Positions 2,846-14,341 of a stretch of DNA of 16,903 bases are shown piece after piece. The stretch is from contig JAUWBH010000138.1 of NCBI GenBank assembly GCA_030605085.1, positions 1 through 16,903 on the forward strand. The letters run 5' to 3'. Origin of the DNA: Promethearchaeota archaeon (GTDB lineage Archaea; Asgardarchaeota; Lokiarchaeia; Sigynarchaeales; SOKP01). Every line of letters begins with the position of its first letter. Position 1 is the first letter of the stretch. A model generated the notes under the pieces. That model did no database searches. It worked only from the letters and a program-made list of their open reading frames with translations, and was not told the DNA's origin. A program made the position numbers and the translations under genes.

Positions 2846-4522
2846 ATGACTATGACTGCAGAAAAAAAAGATTTAGATCCAATAAAAGCTTACGAGAGAG
2901 CTTTATATTTAGGATGTGGCTATTCCTACGAAGATTTAGAAAAACCTAAAATAGCAATTGTTAACTCGTGGAACGAAATCAATCCCGGTCATATACACCT
3001 TCGAAAGTTAAGCGAGTTTATTAAGGAAGAGATTAGAAATGCGGGAGGGACACCCATGGAATTTAATACTATAGCAATTTGCGATGGTATAGCTAATTCT
3101 GGGGATTTTTCTAATTTTGTTTTGCCTTCCAGAGAAATTATTGCGGCGTCCGTAGAATGTACGATAAAAGCTTATGGTTTTGATGGGATGGTGATGCTAT
3201 GCTCTTGCGATAAAATTATTCCAGGCATGTTGTTAGCAGCCGCACGATGCAATATCCCTACTATTTTTCTAACTGGAGGTGTAATGGAACCAAAAATCTT
3301 TATCGATGGACCGTTAAAAGGAAAAACCTACATAACTTCTGATATTAAAGAAGCAATTGGAGAATATCAGGCGGGAAAAATAACTAAAGAAGAATTATTT
3401 CTAATTGAATCACAGACTTGTTGTACTCCAGGTACTTGTAATATGATGGGTACTGCAAATACTATGGCGTGCATTGTAGAAGCAATGGGTCTTTCATTAC
3501 CAAATTGCGCTACAATGAGTGCTGTTAGCAAAGAAAGGGAGGAATTATGTAAAGAAACTGGAAAAGTTATATTAAACTTAGTTAAAGAAAAAGTAAAGGC
3601 TTTAGATATTATTACAACCACTTCGATAGAAAATGCCATTAAAGTTGCTCTATCTTTTGGAGGGTCGACAAATATGATACTTTATATGTGCGCTTTATCA
3701 CGCGAGATTGGAGGTATATTGAATCATTTTGATTTCGATAATCTAAGTAAATCCGTTCCGTTATTAGCGAAATTTAAACCAGCGTCAGAGTATAATCTTA
3801 CAGAATTTCATGAAGCGGGAGGTGTAGGAGTTTTAATGAAAAAATTATCAAAACTTTTAGATTTATCTTCTAATACTATCCTTGGTTTAAACTTAGAAGA
3901 ATATCTCAATCTTATAAAGATTACTGAATATCATATTATTCGAAATTTAGATGATCCCATCTCAAAAGAAGGAGGAATTGCTGTTTTGAAAGGAAGCTTA
4001 GCCCCAGAAGGAGCCATAATAAAGCAAAGTGCTGTTAATCCCCAAATGCGAAAGCATAAAGGTCCAGCAAAAGTTTTTGAATCTGAAGAGGATGTAAAAA
4101 AAGCACTTTTATCAAACAAAATAAAAGAAGGAGATGTTTTGGTTATTCGAAATGAAGGTCCAAAAGGTTCACCTGGAATGAGAGAGTTATCTATACCTGC
4201 TGCGATATTAATCGGTATGGGATTAGGCGATTCAGTTGCTATGATTACGGATGGAAGATATTCAGGAGCAACAAGAGGACCTTGTATTGGACATGTATGC
4301 CCTGAAGCTTTTGAAGGTGGACCCATCGCGATTGTTAAAGATGGAGATGAGATTGAAATAGATATTGATAATCGTAAAATAAATTTACTTCTCTCAAAAA
4401 ACGAGATTGAAAAAAGATTAAAAAAATGGGAACAGCCAGACACAAAAATAAATCCGGAATATTTAAATATTTATAGAAAAATCGTAAGTTCTGCAAAATA
4501 TGGAGCATATTTTAAAGTATAA
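2846..4522 (+). CDS. IlvD/Edd-family dehydratase (dihydroxy-acid or sugar-acid dehydratase)
   Basis: The family removes water from 2,3-dihydroxy acids using an Fe-S cluster and Mg2+. It makes branched-chain 2-oxo acids (IlvD) or 2-keto-3-deoxy sugar acids. The 558 residues, counted from ATG 2846, match family length. Visible motifs are '[13 protein letters not shown]' (40-52), 'CDKIIPGM' (121-128, with the Mg-binding lysine), '[13 protein letters not shown]' (195-207, cluster Cys198) and a C-terminal '[10 protein letters not shown]' whose serine is the expected catalytic base. The usual first cluster cysteine is replaced by Gly48-His49, as in many archaeal and thermophile IlvD proteins, whereas the 'PGTC..MGTA' form is reminiscent of sugar-acid dehydratases. 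No other branched-chain amino acid gene is nearby, and the divergent neighbour is a fucosidase, so L-fuconate or another aldonate is a plausible alternative substrate. Family assignment is firm; substrate is open. Confidence 0.9.
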
Positions 4523-4594
4523 AGATAATGAATTTATTTTAATATATATTTTCAACTTTAAAATTGTATTAATTTTAGAAGGATTCATATTATT

Positions 4595-5035
4595 ATGACC
4601 ATAAACGAAAAAATAAAAAGAGTAGCAATAGTGAGATGCGATAGAACTCAAGAATCGTGCCCAGGAACATCTTGTTTATTGTCATTTTCAGAGAAGAAGC
4701 ACACATTTAAGGATTACGATGAAAATACTAAATTAGTTGGCTTTTTTTCCTGCGGAGGATGTCCTGGAAGGCGAATATTTAGACTAATTCGAAATCTAAA
4801 AGAAGAAAGTGGAGTTGATATAATTCATGTAGCTTCTTGTATTTTAAAAGAAACTCCATTTCCTAAATGCCTTCATAAAAGAGATATCATAAATTCCATT
4901 AAAAACATGGGAGTTGAAGTCGTTCTAGGTTCTGACGATAAATGGGAAAAAGAATTACAAATCAAAAAGCAGAAAGGAAAATTAGAAGATTACGAAGAAA
5001 GCGAAGATTTGTTAGATGGTGCCAAGCATTGGTAA
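4595..5035 (+). CDS. CGGC-domain (putative metal-binding) protein
   Basis: The 146-residue protein carries the CGGC motif at residues 53-56 that names this family (Pfam CGGC), plus Cys15 in 'VRCDRT', Cys22, Cys27, Cys82 and Cys92 in conserved-looking positions. The family is presumed to bind a metal or cluster, and its biochemical role is not established. The C-terminal ~35 residues are highly charged and probably flexible. A TATA-like element (TTTTAATATATATTTTC, about 4537-4553) precedes it, with a GAAGGA ribosome-binding site at 4578-4583. Its stop codon abuts the stop codon of the convergent flavodoxin-ferredoxin gene with no base between, so the two transcripts must overlap. Cytosolic; no membrane segments. 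Confidence 0.8.
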   Translation: MTINEKIKRVAIVRCDRTQESCPGTSCLLSFSEKKHTFKDYDENTKLVGFFSCGGCPGRRIFRLIRNLKEESGVDIIHVASCILKETPFPKCLHKRDIINSIKNMGVEVVLGSDDKWEKELQIKKQKGKLEDYEESEDLLDGAKHW

Positions 5036-5815
5036 TTAATTTTGATTTATAATATCTTGAATCGTAACTTCTGGGTGATGATATCTTTTTCTCTTTGAAG
5101 TTTTTCTACCGTATTGAATTGCTTTTTGAGGACAGAAATGGATGCAAGCAAAACATCTCTGACATTTATGTTGCCACTGGGGTATACCTTCTACAATGGA
5201 GATGTTTTTTACAGGACAGATGTCTTTACATATGCCACAAGAATTACAATTATCATCCGAAGAGAATTTTGTATCACTATTATTAACTTTTTTGCGAAAT
5301 CGTCTATTCATAAACCTTCCAATTAAAGGTAATTTTTCTTTCTCTACTTCCATTCCACTTTCTTTTATTAACATAGATATTTTATCAACTTTTTTTCTAG
5401 CGTTTTCAAATAAAATCTTCTGCTTTTCCTCAGAAGGAGCATCAAAAACGGGAATATAATTGTCAGGCATTTTAATAAAAAACCCTGAATTTAGATTTTT
5501 AGATTTTCTTTTAAGTATATTTCTAAGCTGATGCAGAGATCCTCCGATTTTCCCTCCACCGCATGTTATTACGGAAAATATATAATTTGCCTTATTTAAA
5601 TCAATTCTATTTATAAAATCATATACAATTTTTGGTAATCCTAACCAATACAATGGAAATATAAACCCAACTTTCTCACTCTCGGAGATAATAGTTTCCT
5701 GCTGCCAAATACTAGCAATCGGGACTAGCTTACAATCTTCTAGCTTTTCCGCAAGATCTCTAGCAATCTTCAGCGAATTACCTGTTCCTGAAAAGTAATA
5801 AAGAGTACACATCAT
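5036..5815 (-). CDS. EFR1-type flavodoxin-ferredoxin fusion
   Basis: This 259-residue electron carrier has an N-terminal flavodoxin domain (about 1-150) whose FMN phosphate loop is 'YFSGTGNS' (7-14). A C-terminal 2[4Fe-4S] ferredoxin follows: Cys190-x2-Cys193-x2-Cys196-x3-Cys200-Pro and Cys218-x2-Cys221-x2-Cys224-x3-Cys228-Pro. This is the architecture of EFR1-family ferrodoxins, which are soluble single-chain proteins able to pass electrons between flavin and clusters; physiological partners are usually unknown. A TATA-like element on the minus strand (2 turns upstream, about 5844-5835) would place initiation at the ATG, i.e. a leaderless mRNA. The second codon is also ATG, so the start could be one codon later. 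It converges exactly onto the CGGC gene and diverges from the peptidase gene at 5947. Confidence 0.9.
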   Translation of the reverse strand: MMCTLYYFSGTGNSLKIARDLAEKLEDCKLVPIASIWQQETIISESEKVGFIFPLYWLGLPKIVYDFINRIDLNKANYIFSVITCGGGKIGGSLHQLRNILKRKSKNLNSGFFIKMPDNYIPVFDAPSEEKQKILFENARKKVDKISMLIKESGMEVEKEKLPLIGRFMNRRFRKKVNNSDTKFSSDDNCNSCGICKDICPVKNISIVEGIPQWQHKCQRCFACIHFCPQKAIQYGRKTSKRKRYHHPEVTIQDIINQN

Positions 5816-5834
5816 AATTAAATCGCATTATTTC

Positions 5835-5844
5835 TTAATAAATT
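5835..5844 (-). promoter_or_regulatory. Possible TATA box of the flavodoxin-ferredoxin gene
   Basis: On the minus strand the sequence reads AATTTATTAA, about 25 nt before the ATG at 5815. This implies a leaderless transcript, consistent with the absence of any Shine-Dalgarno sequence. Confidence 0.35.
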
Positions 5845-5946
5845 GAATGTTAGAATAAAAATAGTGTTTTTTTATATTAAAACCACGTTAATTATAAATA
5901 TTAATGAAGTAAAAAATTAATTTGAGTTAAAGAATAAATCTGACCT

Positions 5947-7164
5947 ATGATTGATGAAAAACGCATAAAGGAAAATTTGGAAATGTTTTCCTTTCCACGA
6001 TTATCTGGTACTGAAAATGAGAAAAAAGCTTTTAATTTAGCAAAGAAAAAAGTTGAAGAGTTAAAATTGAGACATTCTGTCCAAGAGTTTTCGTTCAGTA
6101 CTTTTTATGCAAGGATTTACCCAAAATTAGCAGCATTATTAACATTTTGGATTCTGTTCGTTTTATATGTAAATTATCTTGATTTTTTCTGGCTTGTAAA
6201 TCTTATAATAGTATTTTCAATATTCATTCCATTATACTTTATTACTAGAAAGCCAGAAAAAATCAGATTTGGAAAGAAATTAACATCTCAAAATTTATAT
6301 GTCAAAATTCCTGCAAATTTCGATAAAAATAAAGTAAAAACCAATTTTAATAAAAAATTACCTGACAATATAAACGAAAACCACAAAAACAATATTTTTC
6401 TTTTCTCACATTTAGATTCAAAATGTCAGAGATTTCCTATACATATTCGTAGTAAAGTCTTTAAATTTTGGCTATATTCTACTCTAGTAACATTTTTCAT
6501 TATAATTCCTAAAAATTTTATTGTAGGGGCTTTTTTTCCCCAATATTCTTTATGGTTTTACATCATTGGAGTTATTCCCTTAGGTATAAACTTTATCTCA
6601 ACAATTTTAGTCATTCTTAATACTACTACAAATGAATCCCCTGGTGCGTTGGACAATGCTTCAGGAATTTCATGCGTTTTTGAACTTTTGAATTACTATC
6701 TTGCTCCAGAAACTAAATTAAAACATTTTAATTTATGGTTTGTTTTTACAGGAGCAGAAGAATGCGGGACAATGGGTGTACGACATTTTTATAATATAAT
6801 AAAAGATTTCGATAGGAGAACTTCAGTAACTCTTAATTTTGACTCCATAGGGAAGAGTATAACTATTTTTACTTCTGCCAATGAGGATTATAACTATTAC
6901 AATTGCTATAAAAATTTTTTCGAAAAGGCCAGAAAATTCAAGGCAATAGTTTATTCAAAAGACCCGCTTATACACACATCTCGCAGTGATGGCTACTTCC
7001 TATACAATAAGGGGGGTTTTAATGGAATAGGTTTTGGTGATTTTCATTCCTATAAATACATGCACACAGCAGATGATACAGTAGATAAAGTGAATCCAAT
7101 TGTTTTAAAAAATTTATGTAATCTTATTATTGATTTTTTAAAAGATATAGACAATCAATCTTAA
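5947..7164 (+). CDS. Integral-membrane M28-family zinc metallopeptidase
   Basis: M28 peptidases are two-zinc aminopeptidases or related exopeptidases. All five expected ligands and the base are visible in the 405 residues: His155 in 'SHLDS', bridging Asp236 in 'SPGALDNASG', Glu271-Glu272 (base and ligand) in 'GAEECG', Asp299 in 'NFDSIG' and His373 in 'YMHTADD'. The site therefore looks active. Unusually there are two membrane hairpins: residues about 62-80 and 82-100 before the catalytic domain, and about 172-195 and 200-224 between His155 and Asp236. In ordinary M28 enzymes these two ligands are only about 10-15 residues apart. A membrane-embedded or membrane-facing active site follows from this layout. 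It is a single-gene unit by spacing, and the substrate is unknown. No clear Shine-Dalgarno sequence precedes the ATG. Confidence 0.88.
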   Translation: MIDEKRIKENLEMFSFPRLSGTENEKKAFNLAKKKVEELKLRHSVQEFSFSTFYARIYPKLAALLTFWILFVLYVNYLDFFWLVNLIIVFSIFIPLYFITRKPEKIRFGKKLTSQNLYVKIPANFDKNKVKTNFNKKLPDNINENHKNNIFLFSHLDSKCQRFPIHIRSKVFKFWLYSTLVTFFIIIPKNFIVGAFFPQYSLWFYIIGVIPLGINFISTILVILNTTTNESPGALDNASGISCVFELLNYYLAPETKLKHFNLWFVFTGAEECGTMGVRHFYNIIKDFDRRTSVTLNFDSIGKSITIFTSANEDYNYYNCYKNFFEKARKFKAIVYSKDPLIHTSRSDGYFLYNKGGFNGIGFGDFHSYKYMHTADDTVDKVNPIVLKNLCNLIIDFLKDIDNQS

Positions 7165-7192
7165 ATATTTTAACTATTTTTATCGATTTGGG

Positions 7193-7206
7193 AAAAAAAT
7201 AAATAG
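7193..7206 (+). promoter_or_regulatory. TATA box of the DNA methyltransferase gene
   Basis: AAAAAAATAAATAG preceded by GGG (BRE-like) is centred about 27 nt before the GTG start at 7229. This predicts a leaderless mRNA and supports the choice of the non-ATG start. Confidence 0.5.
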
Positions 7207-7228
7207 AAATTGAATGTAATAATATTCA

Positions 7229-8782
7229 GTGAGCAAAATAAAGATTAAAAACAATAAAGAACTAGGGGTTGTATTAACACCTCCTAAAACTTGTGATTAT
7301 ATTATATCAAGGTTAGGCTCAATCAATAAGGAACAAAAAATTTTAGATCCCTGCGTTGGTCCGGGGATATTTATCAAAAGATTGTTAAAAGCGGAAGTTG
7401 AAAAACATCAAATTCATACTTTTGACATAAATTCTGATTATAAATCTGAGATTGAAAAATTAGGTGTATCCTTTAAATCACAAGATACTTTATTATCATT
7501 ATTTCCAGACTCTTATAATGAATTTGATTTTATTGTAGGAAATCCTCCATATTTAAATAAAGCGAGCACTTATGTACGAAAGAACAGATCTAAATTACAA
7601 AAAATTTATGGAGAGATAAACGCTCACGAAACTTATTCAATGTTCATAGTTAACAGCATATGGAGGTTGAAGAATGGGGGAAAATTAGGATTTATCACCA
7701 GCGATTCTTTTCTGACTCTCAATACTCACACGAAATTGAGAAAATTTATTCTTAACAATTGTAAAATTAACGAAATTCTATTGTCTCCAAAAAATTTATT
7801 TGACAGCCAAAATGTAAGCACTAATGCTGCAATTATAATTCTTACTAAATGCACAGGAAAAAAAGCTAAAAATGCAAGGCTAGAAAATATAATGAGAATC
7901 GTTCCAAGAGTAGAGATAGAGGATAATTATAGGAATCCTAAAGTTATTTATAATTTCAAACAAGAAAAATATCATTTATTACCATTTAATATTTTTTTCG
8001 TCGACATAGAAAAGCAGATTATTGATTTATTTGAAAAATCTACGCCGTTAGAAGATTATATAAAAGGTTATATAGGGATGCACACTCATAACAACTTGAA
8101 ATATGTAGCTGCAGTTGAAGGTACCGAATTAGCAGAGGTTTTTAGAAAGCGAAATGAAAAAATTCAAGACCCGTATAGCAAATACAAAATAATTTTAAGA
8201 GAAAAACTTGAATCTGAAAAATGGAAGCCATATTTAAAGCGAGGCGGAGCGGATCAGTACTATAGACCAATAATAGAAGCATTAGATTGGGATAAGAAGT
8301 CAATACCTATTTATGATATTCCTAAAAATGTTCCATTTGAAGAGGAAGGCATTGTGATAAGTGGAGTGAGCTCCAGATTATCCGCTCGTTATATGCCAAA
8401 TGGATGCTATTGGGATTCCAATAAAGCCATCGGGTTTATTATTAGAAATGAATTAATAACAATAGAATATACTTTAGGTCTTTTAAATAGTTCGTTGTAC
8501 AATTACCTTGCAAAAGGAATTATAAATAATACATATAGCATTCAAATAACGGGAATTCATGCTTTACCTTTCATTTTACCCGATAATGAAACTAAAGAAA
8601 AAGTAGAACATCAAGTCAAATTAATTATTGAAAATAAAAAAAAGAACTTGGAATATGACTATACAAATGAGCAAAAGATAATCGATGAGATTATTTTTAA
8701 TTTTTACGCTAATAAATTTAATTTCCCTAAAGAACTAAAAAAAAAGTTAGATGAGAACTTTTCTATTTATAAGAACAATTAA
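7229..8782 (+). CDS. TaqI/Eco57I-like N6-adenine DNA methyltransferase
   Basis: It transfers a methyl group from S-adenosylmethionine to adenine N6 in a specific DNA site. Conserved blocks appear in gamma-class order: motif X 'GVVLTPPKTCDYI' (13-25), motif I 'LDPCVGPGIF' (39-48), the acidic motif II residue Asp67, and motif IV 'NPPY' (105-108) that binds the target adenine. The C-terminal half (about 260-470) resembles the TaqI-like specificity domain, with 'GYIG' near 276, 'RGGADQYYRP' around 340 and a helical 'LGLLNSSLYNYL' segment. At 517 residues there is no room for a fused nuclease, and no PD-(D/E)xK or other restriction gene is visible beside it. It may be an orphan methyltransferase or the modification half of a system whose partner is elsewhere. 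GTG start, leaderless by promoter position. Converges on the GTPase-TIR gene. Confidence 0.88.
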   Translation: MSKIKIKNNKELGVVLTPPKTCDYIISRLGSINKEQKILDPCVGPGIFIKRLLKAEVEKHQIHTFDINSDYKSEIEKLGVSFKSQDTLLSLFPDSYNEFDFIVGNPPYLNKASTYVRKNRSKLQKIYGEINAHETYSMFIVNSIWRLKNGGKLGFITSDSFLTLNTHTKLRKFILNNCKINEILLSPKNLFDSQNVSTNAAIIILTKCTGKKAKNARLENIMRIVPRVEIEDNYRNPKVIYNFKQEKYHLLPFNIFFVDIEKQIIDLFEKSTPLEDYIKGYIGMHTHNNLKYVAAVEGTELAEVFRKRNEKIQDPYSKYKIILREKLESEKWKPYLKRGGADQYYRPIIEALDWDKKSIPIYDIPKNVPFEEEGIVISGVSSRLSARYMPNGCYWDSNKAIGFIIRNELITIEYTLGLLNSSLYNYLAKGIINNTYSIQITGIHALPFILPDNETKEKVEHQVKLIIENKKKNLEYDYTNEQKIIDEIIFNFYANKFNFPKELKKKLDENFSIYKNN

Positions 8783-8920
8783 AAAAATGCTAAATAATCC
8801 AATAATAGTTTCGTATTCAACACTTCCTTACCTGTATCATTCTAATTTTCAAGTTACTTTTACTTTCTTTGGAAAGAAATTTATTCAAAAATTTATGAAT
8901 TAAAAATACTGGAATTTTTT

Positions 8921-10225
8921 CTAAAAATCTGTCTTTAAATCTTTTATATCTATTATTCGTCTTTTAACTTTTTTCAATGTTATATCATAAATCTCATTAA
9001 TTGTTTTTTGAAGATTAAAAGCGTCGAATTCAACGCCCAATCTTGATTTTAAAAGCGGAGGGATGTGTTCTGATTTAATAAATACAGGGAGAATTGGTTT
9101 ACCGAGAGCGTCCGCAGCAGTCCACTCCTTTTCAACGAATTTAGACTTTAATGCATTTGGAGAGCAAAATAAGAGCATAATATCACATGTACCTAGATTA
9201 TCGTTCATGTATTTTACAAAGTTATCGTATGATTCTCCCTCATAAAAAAGGACTTTTTCAATCCCCTTCTTATTATTTAGATTTTCAGCGATTTCTTTAA
9301 TTTTGAATAGTTGTGCGTCTTTAGTTGCATAGCTCACGAACACTGTTATGGTTTTTTTTACGTGTAAATCATCAACAGCAGAATCTTTTGTTAATTGTTT
9401 TTCTTTTAACTCTATTTCTCTTTCTCTTAGTTTCAACTCTCTTTCCTTTAATTCTATCAGCTTTGAGGGTTTTGCTTCTTGAATTTTGATGCCATTTATT
9501 TTTTTTTCCAGTGTTATTAATTTATCAAAAATCACTTTTTGACTTAAATTACTAAGATCTTTAGGAGTTAATTTTGGAGTTGAAGGAGTTGTTGAAACAG
9601 GAGTAACACTTGGACGATATATAATTTTTTCAGATAAAAAATATTCGCTGTGAATGTCTACTCCGAGCATTAGACTAGCAATGCAATAAAAACTGTCAAA
9701 TATACCTTCTTTTGTTATAGTGGAAGTTTCTATATAGGGTGTTTTATATTTACGAATAAATTCATCGAGTTCTTTTGGTGAAACAGCAAATTTTTCTGGA
9801 TCAGTTTTATTTCCAACAAGAAGAATTGGAATTTCCTTTTTTTTCTTCTTTTTTCGTCTGTATAAATTTTCCTTAATTAATTTAATCCAATCATCCAGAT
9901 GTATGAAAGACATGCGATCTGAGAGATCAAATATTATTGAAATTCCTAAAGCTCCTATTAAATACATTGGTCTATTTGAACTAAATTGTTCTAGACCTCC
10001 CTCTCCAATATCCCATCCAATATCCCAGATTTGGAGCTTTATTCTCAACGGACCTCTTTCCTCCGTATCAACTGTAATAGTCTTTACATGGAAATCGACG
10101 CCAATAACTTTTTTATAATCTTCAGTGAAAAAACCTTTTGTAAATAATTTAACAAAGTCTTCTCTTCCACCACCTGCATCTCCTACTATGCACATTTTAA
10201 ACATATAGTCGTAATCATCACTCAT
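8921..10225 (-). CDS. Degenerate small GTPase - coiled coil - TIR domain fusion
   Basis: Residues about 8-190 form a Ras/Rab-like domain: P-loop 'GDAGGGRE' (15-22), switch I 'VIGVDF' (40-45), switch II region 'WDIGWDIGEGG' (67-77), base-recognition 'NKTD' (139-142) and G5-like 'ETST' (166-169). The P-loop Lys is Arg21, the Ser/Thr is Glu22, the switch-I Thr is Val40 and no DxxG is intact. Guanine recognition may survive while GTP hydrolysis probably does not. A Pro/Thr-rich linker (205-221) and a charged coiled coil (about 226-280) lead to a TIR domain (about 292-405) with 'VFVSYATKDA' and the expected NADase glutamate Glu367 in 'SKFVEKEW'. I infer a GTPase-fold sensor or oligomeriser controlling NAD cleavage. 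It has its own promoter and follows the RyR gene by 93 nt on the same strand. Confidence 0.9.
   Translation of the reverse strand: MSDDYDYMFKMCIVGDAGGGREDFVKLFTKGFFTEDYKKVIGVDFHVKTITVDTEERGPLRIKLQIWDIGWDIGEGGLEQFSSNRPMYLIGALGISIIFDLSDRMSFIHLDDWIKLIKENLYRRKKKKKKEIPILLVGNKTDPEKFAVSPKELDEFIRKYKTPYIETSTITKEGIFDSFYCIASLMLGVDIHSEYFLSEKIIYRPSVTPVSTTPSTPKLTPKDLSNLSQKVIFDKLITLEKKINGIKIQEAKPSKLIELKERELKLREREIELKEKQLTKDSAVDDLHVKKTITVFVSYATKDAQLFKIKEIAENLNNKKGIEKVLFYEGESYDNFVKYMNDNLGTCDIMLLFCSPNALKSKFVEKEWTAADALGKPILPVFIKSEHIPPLLKSRLGVEFDAFNLQKTINEIYDITLKKVKRRIIDIKDLKTDF
10004..10027 (+). repeat. Perfect 12-bp tandem duplication inside the GTPase switch II codons
   Basis: TCCAATATCCCA occurs twice in direct succession (10004-10015 and 10016-10027). 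In the minus-strand gene this duplicates four codons, giving WDIG-WDIG where canonical small GTPases have a single WDTAG-type block. It is in frame and looks like replication slippage. Confidence 0.9.
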
Positions 10226-10256
10226 TTGATTTCACTATTTATTAATTATTAATATC

Positions 10257-10271
10257 ACTAATATATATCTC
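10257..10271 (-). promoter_or_regulatory. TATA box of the GTPase-TIR gene
   Basis: The minus strand reads GAGATATATATTAGTG across this site, about 39 nt before the ATG at 10225. The predicted start site is near 10238. A dedicated promoter means the TIR gene need not be co-transcribed with the upstream RyR gene. Confidence 0.45.
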
Positions 10272-10287
10272 ACTTATTTTGAATGTA

Positions 10288-10304
10288 TTTCCCAAAATGG
10301 GAAA
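10288..10304. promoter_or_regulatory. Perfect inverted repeat upstream of the GTPase-TIR promoter
   Basis: TTTCCCA-AAA-TGGGAAA has 7-bp arms around a 3-bp spacer and is the only G+C-containing element in this 93-nt gap. It lies just upstream of the TIR TATA box, where an archaeal activator or repressor dimer could bind. It also lies just after the RyR stop codon, so it could be a weak transcription terminator; no T-run follows it in the minus direction, which favours an operator. Confidence 0.45.
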
Positions 10305-10318
10305 ACTTACTAACTTTT

Positions 10319-12226
10319 TTACTTTCTTTGAATACCCAGATTAATAAATGCTAAAAGTTGAGGGATATACTTAATAAAATCGAAATCTTTTCTCTGTTCC
10401 TCTGAAGTTAATTTGTCAAAAGGTTTTATAAAAGGAGATTTTTTATTTTTTACATCTTTAGTTTCACCGTAAGTCCATCCTGACAGAAGTCGTTCAGTCA
10501 CCCACCTATTATGTTCAATTCTAGCTAAAAGCTCAAGTTCTTCAGGTTTAAATACGAATTCACTATGAATTTTACCTTTAACTGGAACGATATCACAATC
10601 AATTGCTCTTAGCTTTATAAATGTGTGGTCTACTAGTTGTCTATTAGAATTTTTCAAATCAACAGGTAATTGATCCCAAGGAGATAAAGAGATTTGTTCC
10701 TTTTTAGACAAATCTTCAAATTTTTTACCTTGCCTTTCCAATTTATTTAATTCTTTTTTCCTATAATACTCATGATATTCCCTAGAAAGCAAATCTAATG
10801 TTTCATTTAGAATTATTTCTCTTGAACATGATTTTTTAAAGAGACCAAAGGATTTAATGGGATAGGTTTCGAAATATTTGAAAATTACTTCATTTTCTTC
10901 TAGTTCTACTCTGATATCTATTTTTCTATCTTTTAAAATTATTGGTAAAGTTAACGCACACATAATTGAAAGATTCTTGTCGTTAAAGCAAATTATAATT
11001 GCAGTGATAGGATGTTCATTTTCAATTGAATATAATTTATCGTTAAAAATCTTAATATTTTTTATATCTAAAGCTTCATATTGGATATCGCAGACATCAT
11101 GAATGGCGGGATAACGGTATTCAAATTGAGTTTTTAACTCTTCAATATTTCGATCGATAATTGTTATACGTACTTTTTTTTCATTGGCATAATGCGCTTG
11201 CCTAACAGCTTGTAAAACTACGCTCTCTCCCATTTCACCAAAACCAATTACCAATAAGTGTACTTGAACTCCATCTGTTTTTGTATCGACTAATTTATCG
11301 ATTTCAAATTCGTAAAATAAACAACGAGCACAGTTTTCATAAATATTAAAAATTTTTAACTCAAAGTGTGCAAGGCCCTCATGGAATAGAACGCGAGGGG
11401 AATATAATGCCTGTAAGTGGATATCTTTTATGTGGATAAAACATCTTAATTTATGTTTGTGTACACGAGAAGATTTAGGTACTTTTGACTGAATTGGTGG
11501 TAAAAATTCGCTTTGTTCTTGCTTTAAATCCATTTTTTTGCCATATCTTTTTTTTAATCTCTCATATGCTAATATACCAACTTCCATATTGATGGAATCA
11601 TCGGATTCTATTGAAATCAAATATTTAGCATAATGAACTCGAACTCTACGAAGAATAAACCGGTCTGTACAATTTCCTATCATTACTAAAACACCTAATT
11701 CTTTATATTTAGCTATGTACTCATTATTCTTATCCTTATCAATTACTATGACTTTTTCATCATTTTTACGGAATTGTTTTATAATATACATAGATCTTTT
11801 GTTCAAGCCACATATTACAACATGTTTATTAGCGAAATTTGATAAAAGTAATTTTAATCTGTTTCGAAATATTATTGTAATCGTTCTTATCGTAGAATAA
11901 GCCAAGATCAGAGGACATAAAACCATTGCAATCTTTAATAGTAGGGGAATCGGAGGTTCAATATCAAATTCAAGAATAAATAATCGAGCAGTAAGGATTC
12001 CCAAATAAAAAGGATCTTTAATGTGAGGAAATTTCATAGAATATCCAATAAATCCTAATAATGCGGCAATAGAAGTTAATGCTATGATAAAGAAAAGCTC
12101 CACACTTAGAAAATAAATCTTTATAAATTCGAGTATATTTGTTGTGTGTTTACTTTTTTTTAATTTTTTTTTTTTTTCTTCGGTTTTGAACAACTCTAAG
12201 AAATCTTCGTAGAAACTTTCGGTCAT
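10319..12226 (-). CDS. Membrane protein with two RCK/TrkA-N domains and a C-terminal RyR domain
   Basis: The 635-residue chain has two clear membrane helices (about 35-62 and 93-121) with a short hydrophobic segment between (72-88, containing 'ARLFILEF'). A first RCK-like Rossmann domain follows (134-225) with the degenerate turn 'CGLNKRSM', then a second (about 320-460) with intact 'GFGEMGES' (328-335). The C-terminal ryanodine-receptor domain (about 478-632) shows 'EHNRW' (571-575), 'SGWTYG' (582-587) and 'LLAFINLGI' near the end. No TVGYG selectivity filter is present. Layout and the ARLFILE segment agree with bacterial TrkA-N/RyR proteins found in nucleotide-signalling conflict loci. I infer a ligand-gated membrane effector. 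It is divergent from the TPR-SLOG gene across a 235-nt promoter region and is followed by the GTPase-TIR gene. Confidence 0.88.
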   Translation of the reverse strand: MTESFYEDFLELFKTEEKKKKLKKSKHTTNILEFIKIYFLSVELFFIIALTSIAALLGFIGYSMKFPHIKDPFYLGILTARLFILEFDIEPPIPLLLKIAMVLCPLILAYSTIRTITIIFRNRLKLLLSNFANKHVVICGLNKRSMYIIKQFRKNDEKVIVIDKDKNNEYIAKYKELGVLVMIGNCTDRFILRRVRVHYAKYLISIESDDSINMEVGILAYERLKKRYGKKMDLKQEQSEFLPPIQSKVPKSSRVHKHKLRCFIHIKDIHLQALYSPRVLFHEGLAHFELKIFNIYENCARCLFYEFEIDKLVDTKTDGVQVHLLVIGFGEMGESVVLQAVRQAHYANEKKVRITIIDRNIEELKTQFEYRYPAIHDVCDIQYEALDIKNIKIFNDKLYSIENEHPITAIIICFNDKNLSIMCALTLPIILKDRKIDIRVELEENEVIFKYFETYPIKSFGLFKKSCSREIILNETLDLLSREYHEYYRKKELNKLERQGKKFEDLSKKEQISLSPWDQLPVDLKNSNRQLVDHTFIKLRAIDCDIVPVKGKIHSEFVFKPEELELLARIEHNRWVTERLLSGWTYGETKDVKNKKSPFIKPFDKLTSEEQRKDFDFIKYIPQLLAFINLGIQRK

Positions 12227-12301
12227 TTTTTTCTGCTCTTAAAAATTTTTTTTAAAAATTGATATTATTAGGTTTTTTTTTTTTCCTAATAAATTTTTAC
12301 C

Positions 12302-12317
12302 TTTAATATATATTTAG
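12302..12317 (-). promoter_or_regulatory. TATA box of the RyR membrane-protein gene
   Basis: The minus strand reads AAATATATATTAAA within this interval, predicting initiation near 12283 and a ~57-nt A/T-rich leader. It shares the 12227-12461 intergenic region with the divergent TPR-SLOG promoter 70 bp away, so a single regulator could control both. Confidence 0.4.
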
Positions 12318-12378
12318 TTGAGGTATTCCTCTTCTCTTTTTTTATATTTATTAATCTAACCTTATTAATTACTTAACC

Positions 12379-12390
12379 TTATATATATTT
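12379..12390 (+). promoter_or_regulatory. TATA box of the TPR-SLOG gene
   Basis: TTATATATATTT is an excellent archaeal TATA box. Initiation near 12415 would give a ~45-50 nt leader that carries the AGGTG ribosome-binding site at 12446-12450. Confidence 0.45.
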
Positions 12391-12461
12391 GAAAAAAACA
12401 CTTATTAGAAAGAATTGATAAATAATATCCTATTTATTTAAAATCAGGTGTTGATATCAAA

Positions 12462-13550
12462 ATGAAAGCAAATAATGATTTTGGTGCATTTATGTCTTTA
12501 GGTAAGGCAAACAAATATACTAACGATAATAAAGCACACATATATTTTAAAAAAGCTTTTGAAATCGATCCTAGCAATCCAGATTCCCTGAGCAATTATT
12601 TAATTTATGAGATTAGAAAGCAAGGAAATTTAGATCCCATTGTTAAATCTAAGTCTATCATTTTAAATTCAATTGAGAGATGCAAAAACCAAATAAAGAG
12701 AAAAACTAACATATCTAAGTCCTATTTCAATAAAGCGTTATTTCATTTATTTCTTAGCGATATACAATTTTGCTTAGAGAATTATTTAATTGGATTAAAA
12801 TTCAATCCAGAAGAAGATATGATTACAGATACTCTAAATACTTTGGATTTGCTTAAAGGTGTGGAGGACCAATTAAAAGAGCTTGTATTGATAAATAATT
12901 TATTATTACTTTATCTAAAATTTCATTATAAAAACGATAAAGCAAAAGATCGTTTTACATTAAGTTCAGAATTAAAAATGAATAAATTTAACGGACCAAT
13001 AGTTATTTTAGTTGGGGCTACTACATCTCAGTTTGAAAAAGAAGTAGGTAAATATAAGAATAATGTTATAAATGCTTTTAAAAATTTTAAGGGAACGGTT
13101 ATTTCAGGTGGTACTATTGAAGGAATTTGTGGGTTAGCCGGTGATTTACAAGAAAATTATTCAAAATCGATAAAGACAATTGGATATGTTCCTAAGATTA
13201 TACCTCCCAATGTTGAATTTGATTCTAGGTATTCAAAAATTTGCCTAACAAATGGATCAGACTTTAGTGCTCGAGAACCAATTAATTATTGGATAAATAT
13301 TTGGTCAAATAATATAGACAATAAAGATGTTAAAATTCTTGGAATAGATGGAGGAACAATCGCTTTTTTTGAGTATCGCTTAGCATTGCTACTCAATTCA
13401 AAAGTAGGTATTTTAAATGATAGTGGTGGAGAAACCTTAAAATTAATTAGAGATCCAATCTGGCAAAATTTAAAAATAGGAGAAAAAAAACTGCTGAAGA
13501 AAATAAAAAATAACATAAATGATATTGAGGATTTTATTTTGTATTATTAA
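12462..13550 (+). CDS. TPR-like helical domain fused to a TRPM-type SLOG (LSDAT) nucleotide-sensor domain
   Basis: The N-terminal ~155 residues are helical with tetratricopeptide-like repeats ('AHIYFKKAFEIDPSNPDSL', 25-43, and a second unit around 86-118). The C-terminal half (about 176-335) has a Rossmannoid SLOG pattern: strand 'GPIVILVGATT' (178-188), 'VISGGTIEGICGLAG' (213-227) and 'ILGIDGGTIAFFE' (292-304), where a G-G-T turn and a downstream Glu304 are arranged as in SLOG/LOG-fold proteins, then 'KVGILNDSGG' (314-323). SLOG domains bind nucleotide-derived ligands; in the Thoeris protein ThsA one senses a TIR-made cADPR isomer, and TRPM channels carry a related domain. No effector domain or membrane segment is visible, so this is probably a receptor or adaptor. 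It is divergent from the RyR gene. Ribosome-binding site AGGTG with 11-nt spacing. Confidence 0.82.
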   Translation: MKANNDFGAFMSLGKANKYTNDNKAHIYFKKAFEIDPSNPDSLSNYLIYEIRKQGNLDPIVKSKSIILNSIERCKNQIKRKTNISKSYFNKALFHLFLSDIQFCLENYLIGLKFNPEEDMITDTLNTLDLLKGVEDQLKELVLINNLLLLYLKFHYKNDKAKDRFTLSSELKMNKFNGPIVILVGATTSQFEKEVGKYKNNVINAFKNFKGTVISGGTIEGICGLAGDLQENYSKSIKTIGYVPKIIPPNVEFDSRYSKICLTNGSDFSAREPINYWINIWSNNIDNKDVKILGIDGGTIAFFEYRLALLLNSKVGILNDSGGETLKLIRDPIWQNLKIGEKKLLKKIKNNINDIEDFILYY

Positions 13551-13634
13551 TTTTTTTTGAAAAAATTAAGTTTTTATAATAAGAAAAAGTGTAGATAGAT
13601 AGCCTTCTTAATTATTAAAGTAATTAGATAATTG

Positions 13635-14129
13635 TTATGGTGGGATAAATTCTACAAATTCTATCGCTGTTCCATCAGGGTCCTTGCACGTAGCGATTCT
13701 TATTAATCCCACCCCCGGCGTCTCAGGAACCAGGTCAACATCTTGAGGAGGGCTAATGAATTCAACTCCCTTTGTCTTTAGATCATTGTATGTTTTGTCA
13801 ACATCATCCACACCTAGAGCCATCCAAGCAATGTCGATGTTGTTCAATTTCTCATATGGTCTACCAGTGGAAGCTGGCTTAGTCCATTGAAGAAGATCGA
13901 TGACTGTAGCTTTTTTGTCATAGCCAAAGCAGATAAGACAAGCTTTCCACTCAGCCGTCTCCCCCAATCCAAGGCCAATTCCGACACCTCTGCTCTCTGT
14001 CTTCCTTTTAATAACGGTTTCCTTCTTTGTACCACCAACTACATGCCCTCCTAGTAGATCGCAATAAAATTTCAGCGATCTTTCAATATCGGAGACAACC
14101 ACATTCATGTGGACAATCTGGTTTATCAT
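13635..14129 (-). CDS. VOC-fold (glyoxalase/bleomycin-resistance/dioxygenase superfamily) protein
   Basis: The 164 residues show the paired beta-alpha-beta-beta-beta modules of the vicinal-oxygen-chelate fold: 'IVHMNVVVSDIERSLKFY' (5-22) opens the first and 'IDIAWMALGVDDVDKTY' (98-114) the second, ending in 'DPDGTAIEFVEF' (150-161). Candidate metal ligands are His7, Asp78 and Glu157. The position that is normally His in the second module is Asp99, so metal geometry or activity may differ from glyoxalase I. The reaction cannot be assigned. Its DNA is about 45-53% G+C in sampled 60-base blocks, against about 28% in the neighbouring TPR-SLOG gene, which suggests recent acquisition. GGCGGT stands 7 nt before the ATG as a Shine-Dalgarno-like site. 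Confidence 0.85.
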   Translation of the reverse strand: MINQIVHMNVVVSDIERSLKFYCDLLGGHVVGGTKKETVIKRKTESRGVGIGLGLGETAEWKACLICFGYDKKATVIDLLQWTKPASTGRPYEKLNNIDIAWMALGVDDVDKTYNDLKTKGVEFISPPQDVDLVPETPGVGLIRIATCKDPDGTAIEFVEFIPP

Positions 14130-14327
14130 TTAAATACCGCCTTTTCCATAATTCAAAATAATAAAGCATTTTTTTAATCCGTTTTGAAAATTATCTTGTA
14201 TTAATATTTTTTCTTATCTTTTTTAAAATTAACGATAATCAAGTGGTTGGTATGAATTTAGGAAATATCTCTACTAAAGAATTATCTTTTAAAGGTTTAT
14301 TAGATAAATTCTACCTAAGTATTGAAT

Positions 14328-14336
14328 AAAAAAAAA
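14328..14336 (-). terminator. T-run terminator of the E1 operon
   Basis: Nine T residues in the minus-strand transcript begin 5 nt after the E1 beta stop codon, within TATATTTTTTTTTATTC. Archaeal intrinsic termination relies on such U-tracts. It would end the E1 alpha-beta transcript before the VOC gene. Confidence 0.5.
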
Positions 14337-14341
14337 TATAT

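Follow-up and report, generated by a model that had tools for sequence, protein, structure and literature searches.

Results and Discussion

Three adjacent genes in an Asgard archaeon

We analysed a stretch of DNA of 16,903 nucleotides from a Promethearchaeota archaeon (GenBank assembly GCA_030605085.1, contig JAUWBH010000138.1; called the window below), in which three adjacent genes encode a GTPase-TIR fusion, a membrane protein with RCK and RyR domains (RyR-RCK) and a TPR-SLOG protein. An earlier reading of the bare sequence (the original prediction) had taken this trio for a nucleotide-signalling immunity system, and we follow it here as a candidate module of that kind. All three open reading frames (ORFs) lie where they had been predicted, and the GTPase-TIR, the RyR-RCK with its two predicted transmembrane (TM) helices and the TPR-SLOG have the domains described, apart from two points on the second RCK and the SLOG domain given below. 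The predicted divergent arrangement of the RyR-RCK and TPR-SLOG genes around one shared region was also found. The features are as follows.

8921..10225, minus strand: GTPase-TIR, 434 amino acids; degenerate Ras-like GTPase, charged coiled-coil-like linker and TIR_2
9674-10198, minus strand: Ras-like GTPase domain (Pfam Ras, E=3e-27, residues 10-184)
9023..9343, minus strand: TIR domain, predicted NADase and signal generator (Pfam TIR_2, E=4e-15, residues 295-401)
10319..12226, minus strand: RyR-RCK, 635 amino acids; two TM helices, RCK1, Rossmann/RCK2-like part and C-terminal RyR
11837..12142, minus strand: two predicted TM helices and a P-helix-like segment (from hydropathy; the P-helix-like segment is common to most relatives)
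11552..11821, minus strand: RCK1/TrkA_N (Pfam TrkA_N, E=1.3e-17, residues 136-225)
10340..10534, minus strand: RyR domain (Pfam RyR, PF02026, E=1.5e-17, residues 565-629)
12227..12461, no strand: RyR-RCK/TPR-SLOG intergenic region, 235 bp, A+T-rich, between the divergent genes; presumed promoters of both
12462..13550, plus strand: TPR-SLOG, 362 amino acids; TPR at about 12462-12990, LSDAT-type SLOG at 12996-13448

The NADase-type glutamate that the TIR domain was said to retain is present as E367; of the 23 distinct TIR domains compared, 22 have Glu in this alignment column and one has Asp (26 aligned rows, three of them duplicates from overlapping loci, with the window counted among the 23). 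On the same domain the ThsB_TIR profile reaches 19.7 bits, below its cut-off of 21.2, and NCBIfam ThcB4 reaches 14.6, far below its cut-off of 220. According to precomputed Pfam annotation, similar TIR domains are found in other architectures, together with Band-7 (P0039), ubiquitin-like (P0057, P0074), TPR (P0060) or LRR (P0061) parts.

In the membrane protein the RyR domain scores 64 bits and thereby passes the curated PF02026 cut-off of 27.4, and hydropathy gives two strong peaks centred at about residues 38-57 and 98-111 with a weak third one at 416-418. From the two RCK domains that had been proposed, the first is matched by Pfam; the second is not matched by TrkA_N and is suggested by a G[FLM]GxxG Rossmann motif that is kept in all 16 family members, together with a profile match to the dual-RCK channel GsuK (4gx0), which extends over RCK1 only. 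When the family profile was compared with solved structures, the best 60 of 82 matches were, besides RyR chains, TrkA-domain channel chains of GsuK (4gvl, 4gx5 and 4gx0). An isolated assembly error can be dismissed for this gene, because the same protein with one residue different is found on the separate 4,082-bp contig P0001. For the TPR-SLOG protein the LSDAT_prok profile gives 22.6 bits in the window, just below the Pfam cut-off of 25.4, and 29.7 bits in a homologous Asgard protein (L078:8967-11483, genome G106), so that the proposed SLOG domain is recognised above threshold in the relative and not in the window protein itself.

TIR genes recur beside TPR-SLOG genes

Matches to TPR-SLOG at E<=1e-8 were found in 19 of 227 Asgard genomes, with up to seven candidates scored per genome, and 13 of them cover most of the model (the one in G149 runs into a contig end). 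G131 was left out of the neighbour count as its contig ends beside the gene, leaving 12 evaluable genomes. In nine of these (G106, G119, G122, G126, G135, G142, G145, G149 and G161) the TPR-SLOG gene has a TIR gene within 5 kb, at gaps of 47-532 bp in eight genomes and of 2,111 bp in G161; the corresponding distance in the window is 2,236 bp. No TIR gene was found within 5 kb in G071 and G153, and the nearest one in G124, beyond which five others follow, is 5,017 bp away. A looser count that includes G124 (10/12 genomes, 4/6 clades) was dropped, as this gene is 17 bp beyond the limit.

TIR genes are sparse in these genomes, with 0-7 matches in 11 of the 12 and 26 in G161, and the single TIR match of G145 is the TPR-SLOG neighbour itself. 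The nine observed neighbours stand against an expectation of 0.15, which gives P ~2e-16 if the genomes are taken as independent. They are not independent, since the nine were assigned to three groups of related genes, and the tree gives weak support to some of its deeper forks; with one genome per clade a TIR neighbour is found in three of six clades, and P becomes 2.5e-5 to 5e-5. The N-termini of the TIR partners that were scanned vary from TPR (L080) to a beta-helix with a membrane-anchor type (L076) and another anchored type (L082), the partners at locus L068 are tandem TIR and Big-TIR proteins, and the partner in the window carries a GTPase. The TIR domains of several partners of RelA/SpoT-TPR-SLOG proteins match the profile of the window TIR family well.

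Most of the longer TPR-SLOG relatives combine an N-terminal RelA/SpoT-type domain, which Pfam finds in L068, L078 and P0022 and an alignment shows in nine Asgard proteins, with a TPR-S-like region that stays below the TPR-S cut-off in every relative scanned. The window protein does not have this domain and starts within the TPR part. In the tree it groups with P0018, which is also a short form, with a support of 100/100, and the shortening is therefore common to the two sequences. The second TPR-SLOG copy of G124 is without the RelA/SpoT-type domain as well, and that of G161 is preceded by a separate ORF. Because most longer relatives are RelA/SpoT-TPR-SLOG proteins, the usual output of the SLOG sensor is probably a RelA/SpoT-type domain and not a channel. 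A GYxSxHY-like motif in this domain is, as judged from the alignment, apparently kept in G071, G135, G153 and G161, partial in G124 and eroded in G106, G119, G126 and G149. In the latter four genomes (loci L078, L085, L082 and L076, respectively), where the domain is found beside TIR genes, the motif is lost, and because of this loss the domain may be a pseudo-enzyme in this group. A search of plasmids with a RelA/SpoT-TPR-SLOG protein matched four records, all of them limited to the RelA/SpoT part (17-22% of the query).

One further locus (G124:C38, L071/L072) holds two TPR-SLOG genes, one of them with a RelA/SpoT-type domain, and six TIR genes at a distance of 5-17 kb; a DUF4062-TPR gene is located 35 bp upstream.

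RyR genes and their neighbours

PF02026 RyR domains are present in only four of the 227 Asgard genomes (G161, G158, G162 and G006), and in two of the four the RyR gene has a TIR gene within 5 kb (P ~0.003). In G158 the RyR gene follows directly after a HEAT-TIR gene at a distance of about 100 bp. In G161 a stand-alone RyR gene is flanked on both sides by TPR-SLOG genes; two TIR genes, a NUDIX gene and a gene whose AAA/2H matches stay below threshold are located nearby. RyR (4/227) and near-complete TPR-SLOG (13/227) are both rare, but they occur as neighbours in the window and again in G161, with about 0.2% expected for the latter. The whole G161 cluster (G161:C4 4022-16874, L068/L069) comprises a 4xTIR protein, a Big-TIR protein, the stand-alone RyR, NUDIX and the two TPR-SLOG proteins, and it is likely to be an ADP-ribose signalling hub in another Asgard archaeon.

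RyR-RCK genes were also found on plasmids, in five records from three lineages, and in all three lineages a TIR or DUF4062(-type) gene adjoins. In Fusobacterium (L062 4932-9818, a Fusobacterium vincentii record) a TIR-WD40 gene lies 3 bp upstream of RyR-RCK, which is possibly a two-gene bacterial version of the same idea. In Sinorhizobium the gene for a DUF4062-type TPR protein overlaps RyR-RCK by 4 bp in 3/3 records, and in Arcobacter, where RCK and RyR are encoded by two adjacent ORFs, a DUF4062 gene follows 47 bp downstream. DUF4062 is described as a TIR-like NADase in phage defence in the cited part of PMC13174449. Among the other plasmid matches, those in Rhodococcus (five records, one of them viewed) are confined to TrkA_N and to 16% of the query, Azospirillum accounts for four records among the matches listed, and the Burkholderia match L090 shows no RCK or RyR match with the profiles used.

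The proposal that RyR domains serve as sensors of nucleotide ligands has gained support from a 2026 preprint (PMC13232231), which in the part cited here reports that RyR-domain proteins from phages either bind 2' and 3' cyclic ADP-ribose (2'cADPR and 3'cADPR) or cleave them. RyDEP is a glycosidase for these signals and some of its homologues are sponges; six of eight phage homologues assayed bound signals, and all but the DyoEdafos protein showed no cleavage (PMC13232231, same part). The contacts named for RyDEP there are H75, W78, H100 and D117, with H100 as the phosphate-contacting His. In the window protein H572, W575, S597 and D614 are found at the RyDEP spacing of 3, 22 and 17, and judged by this spacing three of the four contact residues (H572, W575 and D614) appear to be kept. 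The bacterial RyR structure 3nrt shows the same residue spacing in an alignment. In the three stand-alone Asgard RyR proteins the corresponding columns read His, Trp, His and Asp, and the loop that separates Trp from the second His is longer. The phage records gave no RyR-RCK match and one weak match to a stand-alone RyR.

Flanking genes and accessory character

The trio is located between conserved chromosomal genes, in the order IlvD-M28 peptidase-methyltransferase (MTase) block, GTPase-TIR (minus), RyR-RCK (minus), TPR-SLOG (plus), VOC (minus) and pyruvate dehydrogenase (PDH) E1 genes, and occupies one interval.

8783..14341, no strand: accessory interval with the trio and a VOC/glyoxalase gene (13635-14129, minus strand)

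In the related genome G116 two unrelated genes, and no trio, lie between flanks that are the same as in the window (MTase 72%, PDH E1 beta 92% and PDH E1 alpha 88% identity), and in seven further relatives, for which the stretch after the MTase was read, different genes are found and the trio is missing at that spot. Because of these relatives, with either both flanks or the post-MTase stretch lacking it, the trio is accessory.

The upstream block (2846-8782) encodes IlvD, an M28 peptidase and a TaqI-like N6-adenine MTase. In 11 of 12 related Asgard genomes a single contig carries all three genes in a span of about 10 kb, and in G117 they are spread over two contigs; the best MTase matches are 69-73% identical and are found in all 12 related genomes searched. 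The MTase, by this conservation, looks like a core orphan MTase, and a defence island, as suggested by its PADLOC match to type II MTases, was rejected since the gene belongs to the conserved core chromosome. PADLOC was run on the trio proteins and the MTase; in the three trio proteins it found no defence system and one weak DzbA match (E=0.023). The window IlvD shows up to 80% identity to genomes in the phylum of a Lokiarchaeota metagenome-assembled genome, and the named relatives of the trio proteins are all Asgard, from Hermodarchaeota and Hodarchaeota for GTPase-TIR and from 'Promethearchaeia' for TPR-SLOG, with further related loci in Lokiarchaeota.

In the search for the trio elsewhere, RyR-RCK matches at E<=1e-9 were obtained in 26 of 227 genomes, 25 of them over the TM/TrkA_N part only, and viral contigs gave no confirmed relative of RyR-RCK, TPR-SLOG or GTPase-TIR. 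Relatives on metagenome contigs are P0002 for RyR-RCK (77%), P0018 for the short TPR-SLOG (52%) and P0024 for GTPase-TIR (63%). A published description of this trio was not found among the ranked matches in openly licensed PMC papers. The original prediction had staked itself on a neighbourhood conserved across genomes: taken narrowly, it fails on this point, as the three genes together are not conserved (0 of 227 Asgard genomes), though pairs from them recur as TIR with TPR-SLOG, RyR with TPR-SLOG (G161), RyR with TIR (G158) and RyR-RCK with TIR or DUF4062 on plasmids.

A possible mechanism and its alternatives

On balance we consider it probable that the trio is one accessory nucleotide-signalling module, in which a NAD-derived signal made by the TIR protein would be read by SLOG and RyR and would act through the RCK membrane protein; most likely this would be an immunity or stress-suicide circuit. 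From genomic links and sequence we infer NADase activity, the identity of the signal, ligand gating, a conducting pore and an antiviral role. The TIR domain, controlled by the GTPase-like and coiled N-terminus, would turn NAD+ into an ADP-ribose-type signal, to which, or to a related one, TPR-SLOG might bind. The C-terminal RyR of the membrane protein would bind the signal as well and, via the two Rossmann/RCK domains, shift the state of the two-TM pore-like region, and the outcome could be an ion leak or depolarisation. RyR-RCK would thereby take the output role in place of the lost RelA/SpoT-type domain that is fused to SLOG in related Asgard loci.

Several observations weigh against such a module. 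The exact trio was found in none of the 227 Asgard genomes searched with the three family alignments and is seen in the window alone; a full-length RyR-RCK occurs elsewhere in one genome (L032, at a contig end) and a full-length GTPase-TIR likewise in one (L001, with seven candidates scored per genome), and no other partners were found near either of them. Around the RyR gene of G006 no TIR or SLOG gene is in view, the G158 contig has a G+C content of 58% and is possibly mis-binned, and the RyR-RCK gene of G162, on a contig that ends upstream, has only a small GTPase gene near it. This last pair was not counted as a second GTPase link, since with 52 Ras matches in 4.2 Mb such a neighbour has a chance expectation of about 5%. 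The DUF4062 score of the Sinorhizobium protein (one record scanned) is 24.0 bits, just below the cut-off of 24.7, and the MTase, the sole possible defence gene beside the trio, is core as far as its sequence conservation tells. The phosphate-contacting His of RyDEP is replaced by Ser (S597) in the window. The window P-loop reads GDAGGGRE with its lysine gone and does not follow the GxxxxGK[ST] motif; all 13 other GTPase-TIR family members that show the P-loop have GIGK, followed by T in five and by E or Q in eight. Because of the lost lysine, a role of the GTPase-like domain as a scaffold or in weak nucleotide binding is more likely than one as a clean switch, and the earlier claim that it detects infection finds no support. 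Finally, no TVGYG-type K+ filter was found in the first 160 residues of the 16 family members (P0012 being truncated there), and because RyR-RCK has no K+ selectivity filter, the disruption of ion balance that had been proposed for it is something we only infer.

Instead of acting as a gate, the RyR domain might be a brake that hydrolyses or soaks up the TIR signal; the membrane protein would then restrict the response or set its timing, and SLOG or the loss of NAD+ would be the effector arm. The glycosidase and sponge activities of RyDEP and its homologues (PMC13232231, part cited above), the kept positions of the catalytic dyad (H572 and D614) and the stand-alone Asgard RyR proteins beside TIR/SLOG genes (G161, G158), which can only bind or cleave, all agree with this. 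We nevertheless regard it as unlikely, as the window RyR is fused to a TM-RCK part, an arrangement that serves ligand gating in GsuK (cited part of PMC3510474), the phosphate-contacting position has changed to Ser, and six of the eight phage homologues assayed bound the signals, with no cleavage by any besides the DyoEdafos protein. It also seems rather improbable to us that the circuit is not antiviral and reports NAD+/ADP-ribose or membrane stress and controls ion balance as a part of ordinary physiology, with RCK reading adenine nucleotides as in GsuK. The activation of GsuK by NAD+ and ADP, as given in the same part of PMC3510474, the second Rossmann motif in 16/16 family members and the PADLOC result for the three proteins would fit this. 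The patchy spread (RyR in 4/227, full-length RyR-RCK in 1/227), the accessory interval, the varied TIR N-termini and the TIR/DUF4062 partners point to conflict systems instead.

A two-gene system, either TPR-SLOG with TIR or RyR-RCK with TIR, beside which the third gene came to lie by chance because the spot is variable, would explain why relatives show recurring pairs and not the trio, and the unrelated genes that G116 holds at this spot are in line with it. With the rare RyR and TPR-SLOG genes being neighbours both in the window and in G161, where this is hardly expected, we consider such partial pairing doubtful. It is very improbable that unrelated housekeeping genes, namely an ion channel regulator, a small-GTPase protein and a TPR protein, became adjacent by chance: the exact trio was seen once and Asgard genomes are rich in small GTPases, as in G162, but the TIR genes near TPR-SLOG far exceed the expectation and RyR-TIR and RyR-SLOG links are found in other genomes. 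The weights given here to the signalling module, the brake, the physiological circuit and the partial pairing overlap and do not sum to one.

TIR-to-nucleotide-to-effector signalling is known in bacteria and plants, Asgard archaea are the closest relatives of eukaryotes, and the action of cADPR on RyR channels has long been disputed in animal Ca2+ signalling. With due reserve we suggest as a tentative possibility that a TIR-made cADPR-type signal acting on a RyR-gated membrane channel in Asgard archaea is a prokaryotic ligand-gated counterpart of cADPR-ryanodine-receptor signalling, within a modular family in which a sensor/output core (SLOG with a RelA/SpoT-type domain, or SLOG with RyR-RCK) is wired to interchangeable TIR proteins with GTPase, TPR, tandem TIR or surface ectodomains. 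If the TIR product does gate the RCK protein via RyR, the trio would offer a small testable model for cADPR-type action on RyR-domain channels, and it would define an archaeal family of TIR-RelA/SpoT-SLOG systems.

Comparison with known systems

Burroughs et al. (2015, NAR) reportedly proposed that RyR, SLOG and TIR take part in nucleotide-based conflict systems. With the animal channels RyR and TRPM2 the trio has RyR (PF02026) and LSDAT-type domains in common, and these channels are regulated by cADPR/ADPR; the likeness goes no further than the domain level, and the domains are found on separate small proteins in the window. Dual-RCK two-TM channels such as GsuK resemble the window protein in having two TM helices followed by tandem Rossmann/RCK parts, the second RCK of the window being recognised by its motif only, and the window protein differs by the missing TVGYG-type filter and the extra C-terminal RyR. 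The phage RyDEP and other PF02026 proteins belong to the same Pfam family, with H572, W575 and D614 at the spacing of H75, W78 and D117, whereas RyDEP is a phage evasion protein and the window RyR is the C-terminal part of an archaeal TM-RCK protein with Ser at the H100 position. DUF4062 'Swarozyc' is connected with our loci through the DUF4062-type genes beside RyR-RCK in Sinorhizobium and Arcobacter and beside the G124 RelA/SpoT-TPR-SLOG gene; in the cited part of PMC13174449 it is described as a single protein that depletes NAD+ upon activation by a phage portal, with no RyR or SLOG partner.

Thoeris (ThsB TIR with ThsA SIR2-SLOG) shares with the trio a TIR domain with the NADase-type Glu and a putative SLOG sensor in the partner gene, whereas the window SLOG is LSDAT-type on a TPR scaffold and the predicted output is the RyR-RCK membrane protein, or a RelA/SpoT-type domain in relatives. 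Some Thoeris systems use macro-domain effectors, according to the cited part of PMC11204291. Neither a SIR2 nor a macro domain was found in the three trio proteins (Pfam, E<=1), and PADLOC gave no Thoeris match (E<=1). Because such an effector is missing, the trio, judged from its domains, would resemble Thoeris in its working but is not Thoeris. In a survey of Asgard defence (PMC11291487), Thoeris, SLOG and ryanodine are absent from the main text as far as it is cited here. The Asgard RelA/SpoT-TPR-S-LSDAT proteins paired with TIR are alike in their homologous TPR-SLOG part and the TIR gene nearby, and the window copy differs from them in having no RelA/SpoT-type domain and an adjoining RyR-RCK. 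By its domain composition the trio is thus a variant of TIR-nucleotide-effector systems, standing beside a TIR and RelA/SpoT-TPR-SLOG pairing that is found in three sets of related Asgard genes.

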